From an uncultured Erysipelotrichaceae bacterium (GTDB lineage: Bacteria; Bacillota_I; Bacilli_A; Erysipelotrichales; Erysipelotrichaceae): 51,238 nt of DNA. Shown here piece by piece: positions 1 through 7,774 of this stretch; the stretch's first letter is position 1, and each line of letters opens with the position of its first letter. Location: the NCBI GenBank assembly GCA_945877405.1, contig CAMCSA010000014.1, forward strand, positions 1 to 51,238, given 5' to 3'. The notes below the pieces were generated by a model. It searched no databases, was not told where the DNA came from, and saw nothing but the letters and a program-made list of their open reading frames with translations. The translations under genes were made by a program, and so were the position numbers.

Positions 1-1
1 G

Positions 2-64
2 AAGGCCACTTAGCACCCCTGGAAGAACCAACCATAAGGATCTGGGTTCCAAGGGTCAGACCTT
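2..64. other. Hairpin-forming sequence at the left edge
   Basis: Positions 16-29 can pair with 45-55 (CCC..TGGAA..CC against GG.TTCCA.GGG), and AAGG at 2-5 can pair with CCTT at 61-64. This gives a stem of some length with a bulge. It may be the end of a structured RNA or an inverted repeat cut by the window edge. Frame 1 is open from the edge to about 114, but I do not recognise the peptide. A weak CGAG-AAA-CTCG hairpin followed by T residues at 82-102 could end a transcript from the left. Confidence 0.3.
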
Positions 65-109
65 ATATACTTTTACATATTCGAGAAACTCGCTCTTTTT
101 TGTGCTTTG

Positions 110-129
110 GTTGAAAATCCCTTTTCAAC
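110..129. repeat. Perfect 8-bp hairpin GTTGAAAA-TCCC-TTTTCAAC
   Basis: GTTGAAAA at 110-117 and TTTTCAAC at 122-129 are perfect complements around a 4-base loop. The same GGTTGAA word recurs at 154 and 208 in the left inverted repeat and, inverted, at its partner near 2161-2226. Confidence 0.5.
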
Positions 130-151
130 GATTTTTACTCAAAAATTTCCT

Positions 152-215
152 TTGGTTGAATTTCTACGATTCATCAGACAGTCAGCAATGTGTTGGTCGC
201 AATCCATGGTTGAAA
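152..215 (+). repeat. Left arm of 65-bp imperfect inverted repeat
   Basis: This arm matches the reverse complement of 2161-2226. The outer 14 bases (GGTTGAATTTCTAC) and the inner 22 or so bases (TGGTCGCAATCC, one mismatch, TGGTTGAAAA) are conserved, with a divergent middle. The two arms enclose the dUTPase-like membrane gene and the broken transposase, as transposon ends would. No clear target-site duplication was found outside them. Confidence 0.6.
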
Positions 216-249
216 AAAGAACATTTACACAAAAATGCTTCTTTGTGTG

Positions 250-255
250 TATAAT
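250..255 (+). promoter_or_regulatory. Candidate -10 box TATAAT
   Basis: A consensus TATAAT lies 26 bases before the ATG at 282. The best -35 match, TTTACA at 224-229, is 20 bases away, which is longer than ideal. A Shine-Dalgarno-like AGAAGG follows at about 269-274. Confidence 0.45.
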
Positions 256-281
256 ACATCTATCGAAAGAAGGCGATTTAC

Positions 282-1097
282 ATGCTAGTAGATAAACAAA
301 TCAAAGAAAGATGCAAGGACGAGGACGAGAAATTGATTTCTCCATTTGATGAAAATCATGTAAAGAGTATATCGTATGACTTAGACATTGAAGGGTACAT
401 CAATAAAGACGGAAGTCTCTCAAAAGAAAGAGTGCGTCTTCAACCAGGTGAATCTGTGATGATAAAAACAATACAGAGTCTTAAAATGCCTAATGATCTG
501 GTTGGTATCATAGGCGAACGCAATTCAAAGATACGGCAGGGCCTGGAGGTAGTTGGTCCGCATTATTTTCCAGGACATACTACGGCTATTTATTTACGAG
601 TAACAAACGTGTCTCCAGTTGATATAGAACTGAACCACGGTGACGGAATCGCACAGATCTTTTTTGAGAAGTTATCTGAAGAACCAGAAGTATCCTATGC
701 CGATCAAGAAGGTGCATCGTTTAACAATGAAACAGCCTACCTCGGCTACGGAAAGTACCAGGCTGCATACGAGAAACAAATGCATAACATAGCAAACGCT
801 ACAGATAAGTTGGAAAATTTGGAAAGCACCATGTATGGAAATATCCTCACTCTGATGGGAATATTTGTATCGGTATTTTCGTTAATCATGGTGAATTTTT
901 CAAACATCAAGGACATAGAGCCATCAATGCTGATAAAAATAAATGCATCTCTTGCTTGCATAATTTGTCTATTCATGGGGCTGATATTGTTTTTCCTAAA
1001 TACCAATAAAAAAGAATCCAAAAGGATGAAGTTGATTTTTATTGCAGTCATGGTTGCCGTACTGGTCACAATGGTTTTAACAGCTATTTTTTTGTAA
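282..1097 (+). CDS. dUTPase/dCTP-deaminase-like membrane protein
   Basis: The 271-residue protein has an N-terminal dUTPase/dCTP-deaminase-type fold (about residues 1-140). It shows ISYDL near 30, ERNSKIRQG at 79-87, FPGH at 96-99, YLRVTN at 104-109 and HGDGIAQIFFE at 119-129. After a polar linker, three hydrophobic segments follow at about 186-204, 220-239 and 250-271. The family catalytic residues look lost: the deaminase Glu in the LExxN segment is Arg here, and the dUTPase Asp of IDxDYxG is not present. The domain may therefore bind nucleotides or act as a sensor rather than as an enzyme (inference). It sits alone between inverted repeats with a transposase remnant. A phage-sensing or pore-forming role is possible but unproven. 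Confidence 0.7.
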   Translation: MLVDKQIKERCKDEDEKLISPFDENHVKSISYDLDIEGYINKDGSLSKERVRLQPGESVMIKTIQSLKMPNDLVGIIGERNSKIRQGLEVVGPHYFPGHTTAIYLRVTNVSPVDIELNHGDGIAQIFFEKLSEEPEVSYADQEGASFNNETAYLGYGKYQAAYEKQMHNIANATDKLENLESTMYGNILTLMGIFVSVFSLIMVNFSNIKDIEPSMLIKINASLACIICLFMGLILFFLNTNKKESKRMKLIFIAVMVAVLVTMVLTAIFL

Positions 1098-1387
1098 ACA
1101 TCATAAAAAAGGACTCTCAGATATAATTAATGCCAGTAAATCAGGCAAGTTGACAAACTGAGAAAAAGTGATAACGCTCTGGAGCAATCAGGTAGTGTAC
1201 CTGGAATACCCTGGAGCGTTTTCGTATCTGTTAGCCTGCTATGTTTTAGGCGCAATGAAAACATCTCCGAAACTGAGATTTTTTTAAAATCTACCGCTCA
1301 GGGTTGTAGATACTTAGAATGATTGACGATATGACATGGCTGATTTGTTCACGGGCTTCTTTCTTTTGCACTGCCGTTTATCTATCT
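1098..1387. other. Intergenic region with a large hairpin
   Basis: This stretch holds no recognisable gene. AACGCTCTGG at 1173-1182 and CCTGGAGCGTT at 1210-1220 form an imperfect inverted repeat with smaller nested pairings (CAGGT/ACCTG) and TTTTC after it, so it may end the preceding gene. The remainder, up to the transposase remnant, may be old insertion-sequence DNA. Confidence 0.4.
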
Positions 1388-2023
1388 TTACGTATGTAAT
1401 AGACGTGCGATAGAGTCATCCATGTATTTCAGCAGTTCCTGTTTTCTTATCTCATCTGTTGTGACCAAATACTCCATGAGTGTATTCTTAATGGCACCGA
1501 TTACCTTATTGAAGTTATCCTTGATAATGTATTTACCATTTTTACTCTGTCTGCTTGATTGAATCTTCTCGTTTTTCTCAATAATCTTCAGGCCAAACAT
1601 ATTGTAAGCCCACATAAATGCATAAATATCCTGTTTGATCAGTACTGGTCTGTAGCCACTGAATTCCTCTGATTTCATTCTGTTCTTCTGTCTGTTACAG
1701 GAGGTTTCAATGTTCCATCTGCACCAGTACAGGTCTTTGAGCTGTTCTGGGGAACATACTACTTCAGGCTGATTGGTTATCAGTGTCTCTACAACATCAT
1801 TGCGCTCTTCATCTTTTCTTATTGCCACTTTTGCAAATCTAAGTTCATACTCAGTATTCAGAAGGTTATTTCGGAAATGACGATCTTCTCTATAATCATT
1901 TGTACTGGCTCTGTCAAAGGTCAGTTTCAGTGTTTTACACTCATTGATGCATACCTGATCAAACATTCTGATATAGTCAGTTGATTTTGCTCTCATCAGG
2001 AAATAATGAGTTTTCTTGATCAA
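1388..2023 (-). pseudogene. IS4-type transposase, C-terminal remnant
   Basis: The readable part (about 211 residues) is the C-terminal half of an IS4-type DDE transposase. It includes the segment YWCRWNIETSCNRQKNRMKSE, which resembles the YxxRWxIE signature holding the catalytic Glu. The N-terminal half with the two catalytic Asp residues is missing. The open frame begins at a TTG preceded directly by an in-frame TGA, and the DNA upstream does not restore the protein. It lies in the block bounded by the 65-bp inverted repeats, so it is probably the decayed mobilising enzyme of that block. It is not closely similar to the intact transposase at the right end of the window. Confidence 0.75.
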
Positions 2024-2302
2024 TCAATTATCAAGCAGTTTTCATTTACCGCTAAATCATTATCCAATTTTACATTCCTCTGGATCAATGACCCAGTTAT
2101 TATGCCTGATTTTATGATCATGCGTAATAACTGGACATGAGTGTTTTTCAACACATGACATTTTCAACCAAGGATTGCGACCAAACCCCTTATTGGCTGG
2201 CTGAAAAGCTGTAGAAATTCAACCAGATATTTCGGTTAGCCAACTTTTATTACAACCGCACATCAGATAATACAACGGATCCGTTCCAGATTTTAAAATT
2301 AT
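2024..2302. other. Remnant DNA between transposase fragment and MarR operon
   Basis: No intact gene is visible. The stretch contains several in-frame stops on the minus strand where the transposase N-terminus would be, and the right arm of the 65-bp inverted repeat (2161-2226). Confidence 0.5.
2161..2226 (-). repeat. Right arm of 65-bp imperfect inverted repeat
   Basis: The reverse complement matches 152-215 with both ends conserved (14 and about 22 bases) and a variable centre. See the left arm. Confidence 0.6.
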
Positions 2303-2314
2303 ATAGGTACCTAT
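2303..2314. promoter_or_regulatory. Palindromic operator ATAGGTACCTAT
   Basis: A perfect 12-bp palindrome occupies the place of the -35 box, with TATAAT at 2326-2331. MarR-family repressors bind such short palindromes. Its position directly before the MarR gene suggests autoregulation of the operon. Confidence 0.7.
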
Positions 2315-2325
2315 GTATTTTGGTG

Positions 2326-2331
2326 TATAAT
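2326..2331 (+). promoter_or_regulatory. -10 box TATAAT of the MarR-ABC operon
   Basis: A consensus -10 box lies 22 bases before the ATG at 2353. No good -35 box is present because that position is taken up by the palindrome at 2303-2314. Confidence 0.65.
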
Positions 2332-2352
2332 GCAGTTCATAGGAGAGTCATT

Positions 2353-2787
2353 ATGGAAGAACTGGATCAAAATATGAGAATCATGCGTCTGTTCCGCAGA
2401 TGTCATGCCATTGTCCATTCAAAGATGTGTGGTGGTAAAAGCTCACAGTCGGAAATACTGCGCACACTGCACAGAAACGGACCGCAGACACAGAAGGAAT
2501 TACTGGAAAAGATGAATATCCGACAGGCAACACTCAGTGAAACGCTGACAAAGATGGAAGAAAACGGACTGATCATCAAATCACGCCCGGAAAACGATAG
2601 AAGAGTCACTGTCATTGATCTGAGTGAACAAGGACTACAGCTGACACTTGCAAACAGAGAGAAACATCACAGGCAAAGAGATGCTTTATTGGAATGCTTT
2701 ACAGATGAGGAAAAGCAGACATTGGAAAAGCTGTTATCCAAATGGTATGAACACATGAATGAAAGTGAGGGGAAAACATGCAGCTGA
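2353..2787 (+). CDS. MarR-family transcriptional regulator
   Basis: The 144-residue protein has a winged helix-turn-helix (about residues 33-95) with the recognition-helix segment RQATLSETLTKMEENGLI and a wing RPENDRRVTVIDLS. Long helices at both ends would form the dimer interface. The ATG at 2353 is preferred because AGGAG lies just upstream; the frame is open further upstream but overlaps the -10 box. The gene overlaps the ABC exporter gene by 10 bases, so it very likely represses that operon through the palindrome at 2303-2314. The arrangement of a MarR gene with two ABC exporter genes resembles rcrRPQ of streptococci. The inducing ligand is unknown. Confidence 0.9.
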   Translation: MEELDQNMRIMRLFRRCHAIVHSKMCGGKSSQSEILRTLHRNGPQTQKELLEKMNIRQATLSETLTKMEENGLIIKSRPENDRRVTVIDLSEQGLQLTLANREKHHRQRDALLECFTDEEKQTLEKLLSKWYEHMNESEGKTCS

Positions 2788-4514
2788 TTTTCAGATATAT
2801 GAAAACCTTTGCTTCAGCCATCTGCCTTTCGATGTTTCTGAAGCTGATTGCGACATTCTTTGAGCTTGCATTGCCGTATATCCTGGAACATATGATCGAT
2901 CATGTTGTCCCTTCCGGGAATCTCAATCTTGTGATCTTCTGGGGTATCGCAATGATCTTTACAGCACTGTTATGCTGGATGTTCAATATCCTTGCCAACA
3001 GGAAGGCTGTCAACAATGCACATCATATTTCCTACAATGTCAGAAAAGATCTGTTTGATAAGACAATCAACCTTTCCGGAAGTCAGTTTGATGCATTCGG
3101 CCTGCCAAGTCTTACAAGCCGTATGACAAGTGACAGTTATAACGTTCAATCCTTTGCCCAGGCATTTCAGACAATCTGTGTGCGTGCACCGATCATGCTT
3201 GTTGGTGGAATCATTGTCACTCTGACAATCGATCCTGTATTAAGCAGTATTCTCTGTATTATGGTTCCAATTCTACTTGTTGTCGTACTTTCCGTATCCA
3301 GACGTGGTATCCCTCTTTACAACAAAGTACAGACACGACTGGATGACGTAACAAGAGTATTACGGGAAAACATCACCGGTATCCGTGTCATTAAGGCTTT
3401 ATCCAAAACAGAGTATGAAACGGAACGCTTCCGTGATATTAACCAGAAGATGACAGACCAGGACATGCAGGCAAATACATTCATGGCAATACCCGGTCCA
3501 TCCATGCAGCTGAGTCTGAATATCGGTCTGACTTTAGTTGTACTGATCGGTGCATACAGAGTCAATGCCGGCCTGATGAAACCAGGTGTCATTCTGGCAT
3601 TTTTGACCTACTTCAATCTGATCATGATGAGCGTCATGGCACTCAACCGTATTTTCATGATGACATCCAAAGCATCCGCCTCTGCAGATCGAATCGCACT
3701 TGTACTTGCTGCAGAAAATGAGCCAAAGGTCATCATTGATACGGAACCAGATTCATCTGATGCCTACATTCACTTTGATCACGTCAGCTTTTCCTATCGG
3801 AAACAGAAGTCCAATACGGAAATGGAAAACTGCCTGAGTGATATCGACTTTACGATGCCAAAAGGTGGAACCCTTGGTATCATCGGTCCTACCGGTTGTG
3901 GTAAAACCACGATCATCAATCTTCTGATGCGTTTCTATGATGCAGATGAAGGAGCTGTATACATCAATGGAAAAGATGTACGCAGTTATGAAAAGGATGA
4001 ACTGCACAGCCTGTTCGGTTCCGTGTTTCAGAACGATATTGTTTTCAACGACACACTGAAAGAAAACATTCTGTTTGGAAGAGACTTGAGTGATGAACAG
4101 CTTTCCACAGCAATCCAGGATGCCCAGGCTTATGAATACATATCACAGTTAAAAGAAGGTCTGAACTATAAGGCTGATATCAAAGGTGCAAACCTTTCCG
4201 GTGGACAGAAGCAGCGACTTCTGATTTCAAGAGCCCTTGCGGGTAATCCGGATATTCTGATTCTGGATGATTCCAGCAGTGCGCTGGATTATAAGACAGA
4301 TGCACTGTTAAGAAGAGCCATCGCAGAACACCATAATAATTCCACACTGATCATGATTGCACAGCGTGTCAGTTCCATCCAGAATGCAGATCAGATTCTT
4401 GTGCTGGAAGATGGCAGGTGCATTGGTCATGGCACACATGCTCAGCTGCTTGAAAGTTGTGACTACTATCGAAACATCTACGAAAGTCAGATGGGCGAAT
4501 TGAGTGAGGGGTAA
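2778..4514 (+). CDS. ABC exporter subunit, degenerate NBD
   Basis: The 578-residue half-transporter has six predicted membrane helices (about 1-310) followed by a nucleotide-binding domain. The Walker A is GPTGCGKTT (about 370) and the signature is LSGGQKQR (about 472). The Walker B ILILDDSSSALD has Asp where the catalytic Glu normally is, and the H-loop has Gln (IAQRVSS) instead of His. These are features of the degenerate half of heterodimeric exporters. The partner gene begins 6 bases downstream. The pair probably exports a drug, lipid or peptide; the substrate cannot be read from the sequence. Confidence 0.92.
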   Translation: MQLIFRYMKTFASAICLSMFLKLIATFFELALPYILEHMIDHVVPSGNLNLVIFWGIAMIFTALLCWMFNILANRKAVNNAHHISYNVRKDLFDKTINLSGSQFDAFGLPSLTSRMTSDSYNVQSFAQAFQTICVRAPIMLVGGIIVTLTIDPVLSSILCIMVPILLVVVLSVSRRGIPLYNKVQTRLDDVTRVLRENITGIRVIKALSKTEYETERFRDINQKMTDQDMQANTFMAIPGPSMQLSLNIGLTLVVLIGAYRVNAGLMKPGVILAFLTYFNLIMMSVMALNRIFMMTSKASASADRIALVLAAENEPKVIIDTEPDSSDAYIHFDHVSFSYRKQKSNTEMENCLSDIDFTMPKGGTLGIIGPTGCGKTTIINLLMRFYDADEGAVYINGKDVRSYEKDELHSLFGSVFQNDIVFNDTLKENILFGRDLSDEQLSTAIQDAQAYEYISQLKEGLNYKADIKGANLSGGQKQRLLISRALAGNPDILILDDSSSALDYKTDALLRRAIAEHHNNSTLIMIAQRVSSIQNADQILVLEDGRCIGHGTHAQLLESCDYYRNIYESQMGELSEG

Positions 4515-4519
4515 GAAGC

Positions 4520-6292
4520 ATGCACAGAGATAATGGAAAAAAGAAAGAAAAACCGAAGAATACGAAACAGGCACTTGCCCGCATCTTTCACTACACCAGT
4601 GATTTCAGACTACTGATTCTTGTATGTATCGTATTTGCAATCTGCTCCAATATCGGAAATCTGCTCGGTCCTAAGTTTGCAGGTAAAGCGATTACCGCTG
4701 TGGAAGCAGGGGCTGATAAAGTTGATTTCCCGACTGTATATCATTACGTAAAGCTGATGCTTGCTGTATACATCTTCAGCAACATTCTCAATTTCATTGT
4801 CAACATATCCATGATCCGTATTTCCAGGAAGATCGGATTTCAGATGAGACAGGACATCTTTGAAAAGCTGATGAAACTGCCTGTCCGTTACTTTGATCAG
4901 AATCAGGCAGGTGACATCATCAGCCGTGTCAGCTATGACATTGATGTTGTTACGACATGTATTGCGACAGATGTTGTACAGGTTATGACAAGCCTGGTTA
5001 CAGTCATCGGTTCATTTATCATGATGTGCTCCATCTCATTGCAGCTTGTCGTATGCATGCTGATTACGATACCTGCAGCGATTATATTCACACGTACAAT
5101 CGGCAGATATACAAGGCCACGGTATGCAAGAAGAAGTCATGCCTATGGTGTGATGAACGGATTTGTAGAAGAGATGTTCTCTGGCCAGAAATCCATTCTT
5201 GCCTATGCCTATGAAGATGGTGTCAGTAAAAAATTTGATGAAATCAATCATAAAGCAGCGGATGCCTATTACAAAGCAGATGGTCTTGGTATGATTACCG
5301 GTCCAACAGTAGGTCTGATCAACAATATCGGTCTTGCCTTAATCGGCCTGTGGGGTTCTATTCTCTATTTCAATGGAACAGTCGGTCTTGGCAGTATTTC
5401 CAGTTTCGTTTTGTACTCACGTAAATTCTCGGGTCCAATCAATGAAATTGCAAATATCTTCAATGAAATCTATTCTGCTCTTGCGGCAAGCGAAAGAATC
5501 TTCCGTCTTTTGGATGAAGAAGAGGAAACAGCTGATATCGAAAATGCATACAGCCTTGATGAAGTCAGAGGCGATGTACGCATGGAAAATGTATCCTTTG
5601 GATATCTCAAGGACAGAATCGTTCTGCACAATCTGAATCTGAAAGCAGATGCTGGGAAGACCATTGCGATTGTAGGCCCAACTGGTGCAGGAAAGACTAC
5701 CATCATCAATCTGCTCATGCGCTTCTATGATGTCAACGATGGTAACATCTACGTGGATGATCATGAAACACGTACTTTAACACGTAAGAGTCTGCGCAGA
5801 AGCTATGCCATGGTATTACAGGATACATGGCTGTTTGAAGGAACCATATACGATAACATTGCCTATGGTAAACAGGGTGCAACAAGAGATGAAGTCATTT
5901 CCGCTGCCAAAGCAGCTCACATTCATAGCTTTATCATGCAGCTGCCGGATGGTTATGACACCATCATTCATGAAGATGGCGGTAACATTTCAAAAGGTCA
6001 GAAACAGCTTCTGACAATCGCAAGAGCCATGTTATATGATACAAACATGCTGATTCTTGATGAAGCCACAAGTAACGTGGATACCAATACGGAAAAAGAA
6101 GTTCAGAAAGCCATGCGCAACCTGATGAAAAATAAAACATGCTTTGTCATTGCACATCGACTTTCAACAATACGGAATGCGGACCTGATTCTGGTTCTGG
6201 AACATGGTGATGTTGTAGAACAGGGAACACATGATTCTTTAATGAAAGCACATAAAAACTATTACAGGCTGTACGCAAGCCAGTTCGAGTAA
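4520..6292 (+). CDS. ABC exporter subunit, catalytic NBD
   Basis: The 590-residue half-transporter has membrane helices in residues 1-320 and a nucleotide-binding domain with Walker A GPTGAGKTT (about 385), a Walker B with canonical Glu (LILDEATSNVD, about 512) and an intact H-loop (VIAHRLSTI). Its signature motif is ISKGQ rather than LSGGQ. In heterodimers, the signature of one subunit faces the Walker motifs of the other. The altered signature here and the altered Walker B of the upstream subunit would therefore form one inactive site, leaving the other site active. The operon ends in the terminator just downstream. Confidence 0.92.
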   Translation: MHRDNGKKKEKPKNTKQALARIFHYTSDFRLLILVCIVFAICSNIGNLLGPKFAGKAITAVEAGADKVDFPTVYHYVKLMLAVYIFSNILNFIVNISMIRISRKIGFQMRQDIFEKLMKLPVRYFDQNQAGDIISRVSYDIDVVTTCIATDVVQVMTSLVTVIGSFIMMCSISLQLVVCMLITIPAAIIFTRTIGRYTRPRYARRSHAYGVMNGFVEEMFSGQKSILAYAYEDGVSKKFDEINHKAADAYYKADGLGMITGPTVGLINNIGLALIGLWGSILYFNGTVGLGSISSFVLYSRKFSGPINEIANIFNEIYSALAASERIFRLLDEEEETADIENAYSLDEVRGDVRMENVSFGYLKDRIVLHNLNLKADAGKTIAIVGPTGAGKTTIINLLMRFYDVNDGNIYVDDHETRTLTRKSLRRSYAMVLQDTWLFEGTIYDNIAYGKQGATRDEVISAAKAAHIHSFIMQLPDGYDTIIHEDGGNISKGQKQLLTIARAMLYDTNMLILDEATSNVDTNTEKEVQKAMRNLMKNKTCFVIAHRLSTIRNADLILVLEHGDVVEQGTHDSLMKAHKNYYRLYASQFE

Positions 6293-6294
6293 AC

Positions 6295-6323
6295 TAAAAC
6301 TGCAGATCACTGAGTCTGCAGTT
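6295..6323 (+). terminator. Terminator of the ABC exporter operon
   Basis: AAACTGCAGA, a short loop, then TCTGCAGTTT form a strong hairpin followed by TTTTCTG. Most of it lies inside direct repeat copy A; the near-identical hairpin at 8041-8064 lies beyond the ATPase gene. Confidence 0.75.
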
Positions 6324-6383
6324 TTCTGATATCTCTTCATTGAATAAATCGCAGAAGGAAATCAGTAATTCCAATGATTGTAA
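6302..6383. repeat. 82-bp direct repeat, copy A
   Basis: This is nearly identical to 8041-8121 (a few substitutions and one 1-base indel). On the minus strand it encodes the last residues of the ATPase at 8075-9382 (IIGITDFLLRFIQ-stop), so it is a detached copy of that gene's 3' end. The Fic region lies between the two copies. Confidence 0.85.
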
Positions 6384-6401
6384 TGCTAGTATCGGAATAA
6401 C

Positions 6402-6465
6402 GGAACGGCAGTTCCGCTTTAGTGGAACATCGGTTCGCCTTGATGGAACGATAGGACTTCTATGA
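6402..6465. repeat. Three imperfect 21-22 bp tandem repeats
   Basis: Units begin with GGAAC at 6402, 6424 and 6445. The first two share GGAAC, then GTTC and a GCYTT segment; the third is more divergent. The first unit also forms the hairpin CGGAAC-GGCA-GTTCCG (6401-6416). The arrangement is iteron-like. Confidence 0.5.
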
Positions 6466-6766
6466 GTTGTATAGGAGACTATACAGCATATTGTAGTCGA
6501 GCTTATGCCGCGAAAGCCGCTTGATAGTTGGGTGTTCTCCCTGCTACACTTGTGTGCTCCGGTGTTGCCAAAGGGCAATATTTTCACCAACGGCGTATTC
6601 TTCTTATTGCTTATAGAAGATTAACAACCAAAAACAAGGCTGGTTATTACTTCGAAAGAGGTAGTATACGGCCTTTTAATTTGCGCTTGGATCATTTATC
6701 ACATTATATCTGATTATTATGTGTTAGCGTGAATACTTGTTGTGTGGAACGTAGCAAAACTTCCTG

Positions 6767-6819
6767 TATCGGCAAAATTTGGATTGCTAGAATAAATGAT
6801 ATTTATTTTATTGCCGATA
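6767..6819. promoter_or_regulatory. Nested inverted repeats before the Fic gene
   Basis: TATCGGCAA at 6767-6775 is the exact inverse of TTGCCGATA at 6811-6819. Between them AATAAAT-GAT-ATTTATT (6791-6807) is a second perfect inverted repeat. The right outer arm lies within the promoter just before the -10 box at 6826, so a bound protein could block transcription. Confidence 0.6.
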
Positions 6820-6825
6820 AGGTGA

Positions 6826-6831
6826 TATACT
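6826..6831 (+). promoter_or_regulatory. Extended -10 box of the Fic gene
   Basis: TGATATACT (6823-6831) is an extended -10 element about 50 bases before the ATG. The ribosome binding site GGAGG lies at about 6872-6876. Confidence 0.55.
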
Positions 6832-6883
6832 ATATAAGTAGATTAGTGTATTCTTTTATTTGATTTATAACGGAGGATAGCAG

Positions 6884-7774
6884 ATGCGATACCTTTCGGT
6901 TACTGAGATGGCAAAAAAATGGAATGTGTCAGAGCGTAGTGTTAGAAACTATTGCGCTCAAGGACGTGTGAATGGAGCGTTTCTTACCGGCAAGACTTGG
7001 AATATTCCCGAAAATGCAGAAAAACCAGAGCGTGCCAACAAGAGAAAAGAGGAACCGATTACTCTGTTGGATATTCTGAAAGAGCAGAAAGCAAGCAAAT
7101 ACTCCGGAGGCATTTACCATAAGACGCAGATTGATTTGACATACAACTCAAACCACATCGAAGGTAGTCGTCTGACTCACGATCAGACCAGATATATTTT
7201 TGAAACCAACACGATTGGCGTAGAAAATGAAGTTCTCAATGTTGATGATGTGATTGAAACAGCAAATCATTTCCGTTGCATTGATATGATTATTGATAAT
7301 GCGAAAGCTGCTTTGACAGAGAAGTTTATCAAAGAGCTTCATCTATTTTTAAAGAACGGAACCAGCGATTCCAGAAAATATTGGTTCGCTGTTGGTAACT
7401 ACAAAAAACTTCCAAACGAGGTAGGTGGTATGGATACTGCCCTTCCGGAAGAAGTTGCCGATCAGATGAAAGCATTGCTGGCAGAATACAATGCCAAGGA
7501 AGTAAAGACCTTTGAAGATATTCTTGACTTCCATGTGAAATTTGAACGAATCCATCCGTTCCAGGACGGAAACGGACGTGTGGGCAGACTGATTATGTTC
7601 AAGGAGTGCCTGAAGTATAATATTGTTCCTTTTATCATCGAGGACAATCTGAAAATGTTTTATTATCGTGGATTGAAAGAATGGAACAATGAGAAAGACT
7701 ACCTGACGGATACCTGTTTGACCGCACAGGATAAATATAAAGCATATTTGGATTATTTTCGAATTTCGTATTAA
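6884..7774 (+). CDS. HTH-Fic protein, putative AMP-transferase
   Basis: The 296-residue protein starts with a helix-turn-helix of MerR/excisionase type (about residues 1-50) and continues with a Fic domain. The Fic motif HPFQDGNGRVGR (about 223-234) has all key residues: catalytic His, the phosphate-binding DGNGR and the second Arg. An inhibitory-helix motif SNHIEG (about 89-94) matches (S/T)xxxE(G/N), which in class II Fic proteins blocks ATP binding in cis. Fic enzymes usually transfer AMP to a hydroxyl group of a protein; the target here is unknown. The N-terminal HTH may bind the palindromes upstream (inference). A truncated Fic/VbhA-like fragment follows 20 bases downstream. Confidence 0.9.
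   Translation: MRYLSVTEMAKKWNVSERSVRNYCAQGRVNGAFLTGKTWNIPENAEKPERANKRKEEPITLLDILKEQKASKYSGGIYHKTQIDLTYNSNHIEGSRLTHDQTRYIFETNTIGVENEVLNVDDVIETANHFRCIDMIIDNAKAALTEKFIKELHLFLKNGTSDSRKYWFAVGNYKKLPNEVGGMDTALPEEVADQMKALLAEYNAKEVKTFEDILDFHVKFERIHPFQDGNGRVGRLIMFKECLKYNIVPFIIEDNLKMFYYRGLKEWNNEKDYLTDTCLTAQDKYKAYLDYFRISY

Follow-up and report, generated by a model that had tools for sequence, protein, structure and literature searches.

A phage-associated protein family joining a Dcd/dUTPase fold with lost catalytic residues to three predicted membrane helices

Near the start of the window (the whole 51,238-nucleotide stretch of DNA analysed here) we identified a gene whose product combines a Dcd/dUTPase fold, from which the catalytic residues have been lost, with three predicted membrane helices at the C-terminus. 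The protein belongs to a family that forms one clade, and members of this family are carried by gut bacteria and by phages, in several cases close to an integrase. Such proteins may serve prophages as nucleotide sensors coupled to a membrane effector.

Fold, membrane part and catalytic positions

The gene (positions 282-1097, forward strand) was delimited by its open reading frame, Pfam DCD and dUTPase matches, the AlphaFold (AF2) model and the family alignment A7. The reading frame is intact, with an ATG start and 271 codons for a protein of 271 amino acids. By reading the sequence we found a Shine-Dalgarno-like AAAGAAGG at 266-273, eight bases 5' of the ATG. A promoter-like TACACA-18-TATAAT lies 5' of the gene at 226-255 on the same strand, a kind of site that is here no commoner than chance. 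The protein scored above the curated cut-off of Pfam DCD (PF22769, E = 2e-16) and above that of Pfam dUTPase (PF00692, E = 7e-7, 29.6 bits against a cut-off of 22), and it fell below the cut-off of the dCTP deaminase equivalog TIGR02274 (70.5 bits against 92.8). PADLOC 2.0.0 had no model covering the protein and gave weak CorA-like matches only (E 0.005-0.013, residues 135-258); tRNA and Rfam scans returned no match.

The initial annotation had proposed a Dcd/dUTPase fold, and structure prediction followed by structural comparison bore this out. The AlphaFold model was confident for residues 1-130 (pLDDT about 90), which cover nearly all of a Dcd/dUTPase-like beta domain assigned to residues 1-135 (282-686, forward strand). 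Foldseek matched Dcd structures at 1e-9 to 1e-12, among them 4dhk at 2.6e-12. By VIA the domain aligned with Mtb Dcd-Dut (2qxx) at Z 19.0 and 2.1 Å over 146 residues, and with trimeric dUTPases at Z about 12-13. As modelled, the domain matches the Dcd fold unambiguously. It is followed by a polar linker and a helix running into the membrane helices (687-839, forward strand; alignment A7 and model helix 160-207), a region that opens with a Dcd-type Y-x-G...E...G tail in the alignment. Three transmembrane helices were then predicted at residues 188-206, 220-238 and 251-269 (843-1088, forward strand). These hydrophobic segments, found by hydropathy, coincide with the three long helices of the AF2 models (160-207, 214-239 and 246-270), so that two predictions agree on the three membrane segments proposed earlier. 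A structure search of the PDB with the three-helix module gave a best match of E 1.9.

We established residue equivalences by aligning the window protein to E. coli Dcd. The position of the catalytic Glu138 is occupied by Arg106 (codon 597-599, forward strand, as for all codons given here), and in A7 this residue is Arg in 16 members and Lys in the remaining one. Phe96 (567-569) stands at Dcd D128, the Asp of dUTPase motif III, a position that is F, N, Q or H in the family and never Asp. His99 (576-578), which is invariant, replaces W131, the aromatic of the Dcd PG(W/F) motif, and Asn81 replaces S111. Both losses suspected earlier, that of the deaminase Glu and that of the dUTPase Asp, extend to the homologues: the initial annotation had named enzymatically active relatives with an intact active site as counter-evidence, and the number of aligned members keeping either the Glu or the Asp is 0 of 17. 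Judged by these defining residues, the window protein would be neither a Dcd nor a Dut enzyme. Phosphate-binding elements are retained in the form of Ser82, Arg85 and Gly87; the first two correspond to S112 and R115 of E. coli Dcd, the invariant Arg85 (534-536) being Arg115 of its RSSxxR motif. Loss of the Glu need not abolish ligand binding, since E. coli Dcd E138A was crystallised with dCTP (1xs4) and with dTTP (2j4q), according to PDB titles among the Foldseek matches.

Homologues and their genomic settings

Family members were gathered from genome and viral-contig searches, and 17 diverged members were aligned (A7); half of the members came from viral contigs, which makes the phage share a biased estimate. 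They are 25-49% identical to the window protein and come from Eubacterium pyruvativorans, Faecalibacillus intestinalis, Pseudoflavonifractor, Sharpea, several MAGs and uncultivated phage contigs. The search for homologues with the same fusion was successful: the complete fusion of Dcd domain and three TM helices is present in 13 of the 17. The same 13 members carry all family features, namely PxYxPGHxT, absence of the catalytic Asp and Glu, and three C-terminal TM helices. The signature PxYxPGHxT itself is common to 17/17, and the invariant residues are R85, G87, P93, Y95, P97, G98, H99, T101, N109 and S111. Among the other aligned members, L016 has one TM helix and L003, L014 and L071 have none; an eighteenth member, L087, also lacks the membrane part. 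In a phylogenetic tree a branch with support 87/97 separates the family from canonical Dcd, Dut and other Dcd-like fusions. Because the same replacements occur in diverged members that form one clade, the alignment indicates a conserved, living family in which the catalytic changes have been retained, and not decay. The family is under purifying selection, with dN/dS of 0.14-0.45 (Nei-Gojobori) in the four pairs for which dS could be computed.

The TM-less members L003, L014, L071-L074 and L087 end at the linker and keep the signature, and several are on phage contigs. We looked for a frame-shifted TM part 3' of L003, L014 and L071 and saw none. No match to the family was found in 59 genomes of the same genus, which suggests recent acquisition. 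Among 295 Bacilli genomes PF22769 had 52 matches, and since these were mostly of single-domain length, the TM fusion is rare. Plasmid and phage collections queried with the whole protein yielded ordinary Dcd/dUTPase-type matches only, plus the distant L041 in phages, while the TM part alone as a query gave no match in the same collections.

The window gene begins 281 bp into its contig, so its upstream neighbour lies beyond the contig edge. Downstream are the C-terminal remnant of an IS4-family transposase (1388-2023, reverse strand; its match to NF033592 is confined to profile positions 197-328 of 332) and, after it, a MarR/ABC-transporter operon. The gene had been described as standing in an inverted-repeat-bounded block. 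The arms detected by repeat search are real (153-216, forward strand, and 2161-2225, reverse strand), and chance alone would give their 24-nt core 0 times; the block is nevertheless made up of IS debris and repeats that are dispersed in the genome, and it adds little to the interpretation. Both arms are copies of one dispersed repeat, roughly 65-120 bp long in this genome, of which a third copy stands isolated at G000:C43:11683-11800, and other parts of 1098-2330, among them 1129-1232 and 2038-2132, have further copies in the genome as well. A reading of the block as a transposon was weakened by the isolated third copy and the other dispersed pieces. The locus of the gene is mobile-element debris. 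We note that positions 2093-2134 form a near-perfect hairpin with 18-nt arms, inside a stretch that has another copy at G000:C65. Within positions 1-7774 of the window we recognised no defence gene, and a separate dUTPase is encoded by the same genome on contig C27.

In relatives the surroundings are those of phages. The gene order in an E. pyruvativorans prophage is HTH repressor, ImmA-type peptidase, NYN-domain protein, Dcd-TM gene and tyrosine integrase. On L065 the Dcd-TM gene has an HTH regulator on one side and an integrase on the other, and on L066 it adjoins an integrase, on whose far side are a SIR2 protein and an HTH regulator; in all, three phage-contig copies are no more than a few genes away from an integrase. 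Structural genes are near others: on L054 one small gene separates the Dcd-TM gene from the terminase and portal genes downstream, and on L064 it is preceded by portal and minor head genes. On L063 a direct repeat of 127 bp flanks it, the two copies being 960 bp apart with 91% identity, a pattern expected of cargo. The TM-less L071 and L074 are near antirepressor genes, and the TM-less L087 is just before a terminase-like ORF. Such positions are typical of phage accessory genes. A defence-like setting was found in relatives, which are integrase-proximal and in one case accompanied by the SIR2 protein, but not in the window itself, with its transposase remnant and MarR/ABC operon. The SIR2-domain protein (L066:2115-3707) matched PDC-S25, a candidate defence gene of PADLOC, with 477 bits; with the integrase next to it and the Dcd-TM gene nearby, the place is a phage accessory-defence spot.

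The two halves of the protein also occur in other combinations. L029 (1234-1878) encodes a 214-aa protein in which an N-terminal helical or coiled-coil part precedes the same three-TM module, with no Dcd domain. L030 (1147-2049) and L032 (1300-2142) are Dcd-like, have lost the catalytic Glu and end in two TM helices, L032 lying beside phage packaging-type genes. On L041 (6001-7267, fecal phage MT835477), in a lysogeny region, an altered Dcd-like gene stands immediately before a two-TM gene, with a DUF1653 gene coming next, and in L026-L028 a Dcd-like domain is fused to DUF1653. The Dcd-like proteins of L026-L028, L030, L032 and L041 all fall outside the family clade. A dead Dcd domain seems to have been paired with membrane helices more than once, the number of origins being uncertain on account of long branches. 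The Dcd-like domain and the membrane part are thus both modular.

Candidate functions

The position and company of the genes in phages make protection of the lysogen the most likely use. We give about an even chance to the interpretation that the protein is a prophage-borne single-gene nucleotide sensor and membrane effector, which would protect the lysogen through superinfection immunity or abortive infection. The Dcd/dUTPase-fold domain would assemble into the trimer that is usual in the family, and this trimer would bind a nucleotide but not convert it, the residues required for deamination and pyrophosphate hydrolysis having been lost. The helical linker would pass the state of the ligand to the nine membrane helices of the trimer, which would respond to a ligand change by altering the membrane and would halt an incoming or competing phage. 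Since L003, L014, L071 and L087 are without a membrane part and L016 has one helix, the Dcd-like domain may also play a separate role.

A scaffold reading would keep the lysogen protected and dispense with the nucleotide. If the Dcd fold served solely to trimerise a superinfection-exclusion membrane protein, the helices would block DNA entry or receptor function, and the prophage position near integrase and repressor, the small multi-helix membrane part and the lost catalytic residues would all fit. A mere scaffold, however, needs neither an invariant PxYxPGHxT nor Arg85 and Arg106 at 25-49% identity, and TM-less members keep the same signature; we regard this reading as unlikely. The TM-less phage members, with antirepressor genes near L071 and L074 and the terminase-like ORF after L087, would suit a phage nucleotide sponge or host-takeover factor that captures either a dNTP or a signal of the host's defences; its helices would localise it, and TM-less forms would be soluble sponges. 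For a sponge, though, the three-TM module conserved in 13 of the 17 aligned members would be needless, and several members lie in lysogeny modules, where they are likely to be expressed from the prophage, and not in early lytic clusters, which leaves the sponge quite improbable.

Invariant or nearly invariant new residues, His99, Thr101 and Arg106, stand in place of the old catalytic set, and might have equipped the pocket to catalyse a different nucleotide reaction at the membrane. Against this, both catalytic positions are without a carboxylate, and no case of a Dcd/dUTPase fold that catalyses a reaction without one is known to us; an enzyme of altered chemistry is in our view very unlikely. 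The idea that a degenerate dcd copy drifted and gained a membrane tail by chance draws on the place of the window copy amid IS and repeat debris. It is contradicted by the family alignment, in which the same fusion recurs in 13 diverged members with conserved replacements, and by dN/dS well below 1 where measurable, and we consider it hardly credible.

Returning to the sensor-effector interpretation, we tentatively extend it to a class of stand-alone, phage-carried immune receptors, an extension that we think has perhaps one chance in its favour for every two against. In such receptors a dead Dcd/dUTPase-fold trimer would read a nucleotide directly, without a cyclase, and gate the membrane module, the parts being shuffled independently. 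The ligand sensed directly might be dTTP or dUTP, a dNTP modified by the phage, or some other nucleotide. Most of the known prokaryotic membrane effectors that sense nucleotides await a signal from a partner enzyme. If direct sensing is true, a one-gene receptor made from a retired nucleotide-pool enzyme would sense the pool itself, which many phages disturb, and would show that phages reuse metabolic enzymes as sensors. The pocket formed by Arg85, His99 and Arg106 is defined and testable.

Comparison with known systems

Literature searches returned no description of the protein family, its architecture, its lost catalysis or the PxYxPGHxT signature, in agreement with the earlier statement that no described system has exactly this architecture. 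The window protein is like Dcd (2qxx, 1xs1, 8y1w) in its fold (Z 17-19), its N-terminal helix and SYDL-like motif, its RSSxxR-like phosphate motif with Arg115 kept, the Asn after the catalytic strand and the Y-x-G tail. It is unlike Dcd in having Arg for E138, Phe for D128 and an invariant His for the aromatic at 131, in a shorter N-terminal loop region, in the added linker and three TM helices, and in its score below the TIGR02274 cut-off. It is established for the superfamily that Dcd and Dut work as trimers that have nucleotide pockets, and that Dcd is subject to regulation by dTTP (PMC4827122). With trimeric dUTPases the protein shares the superfamily fold, and a dUTPase-fold protein as a signal has precedent, since phage dUTPases can act as signals to the Stl repressor (PMC5593958); it differs from them in lacking the motif III Asp, in its membrane part and in that no Stl partner was seen. 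DefensePredictor places a dUTPase domain among predicted, unvalidated defence domains (PMC13092281, Fig. 6F); its main text gives no architecture, lost catalysis or three-TM fusion for that domain.

L030, L032 and L041 resemble the family in joining a catalytically altered Dcd domain to membrane helices or placing it beside them, and L032 and L041 also in their phage-like surroundings; unlike the family, they lie outside the clade, have two TM helices and carry other residue replacements. Cap15, PycTM and OptE are membrane effectors that sense nucleotides in CBASS, Pycsar and Panoptes, and the window protein would work in the manner of Cap15 or OptE. No nucleotide cyclase was recognised beside the window gene or the relatives read, where part of the neighbours was scanned and the window's contig edge lies 281 bp upstream. 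With these effectors the window protein would share the layout of a small nucleotide-binding domain with TM helices, and it differs from them in having another sensor fold, in being encoded by a solitary gene and in being phage-borne.
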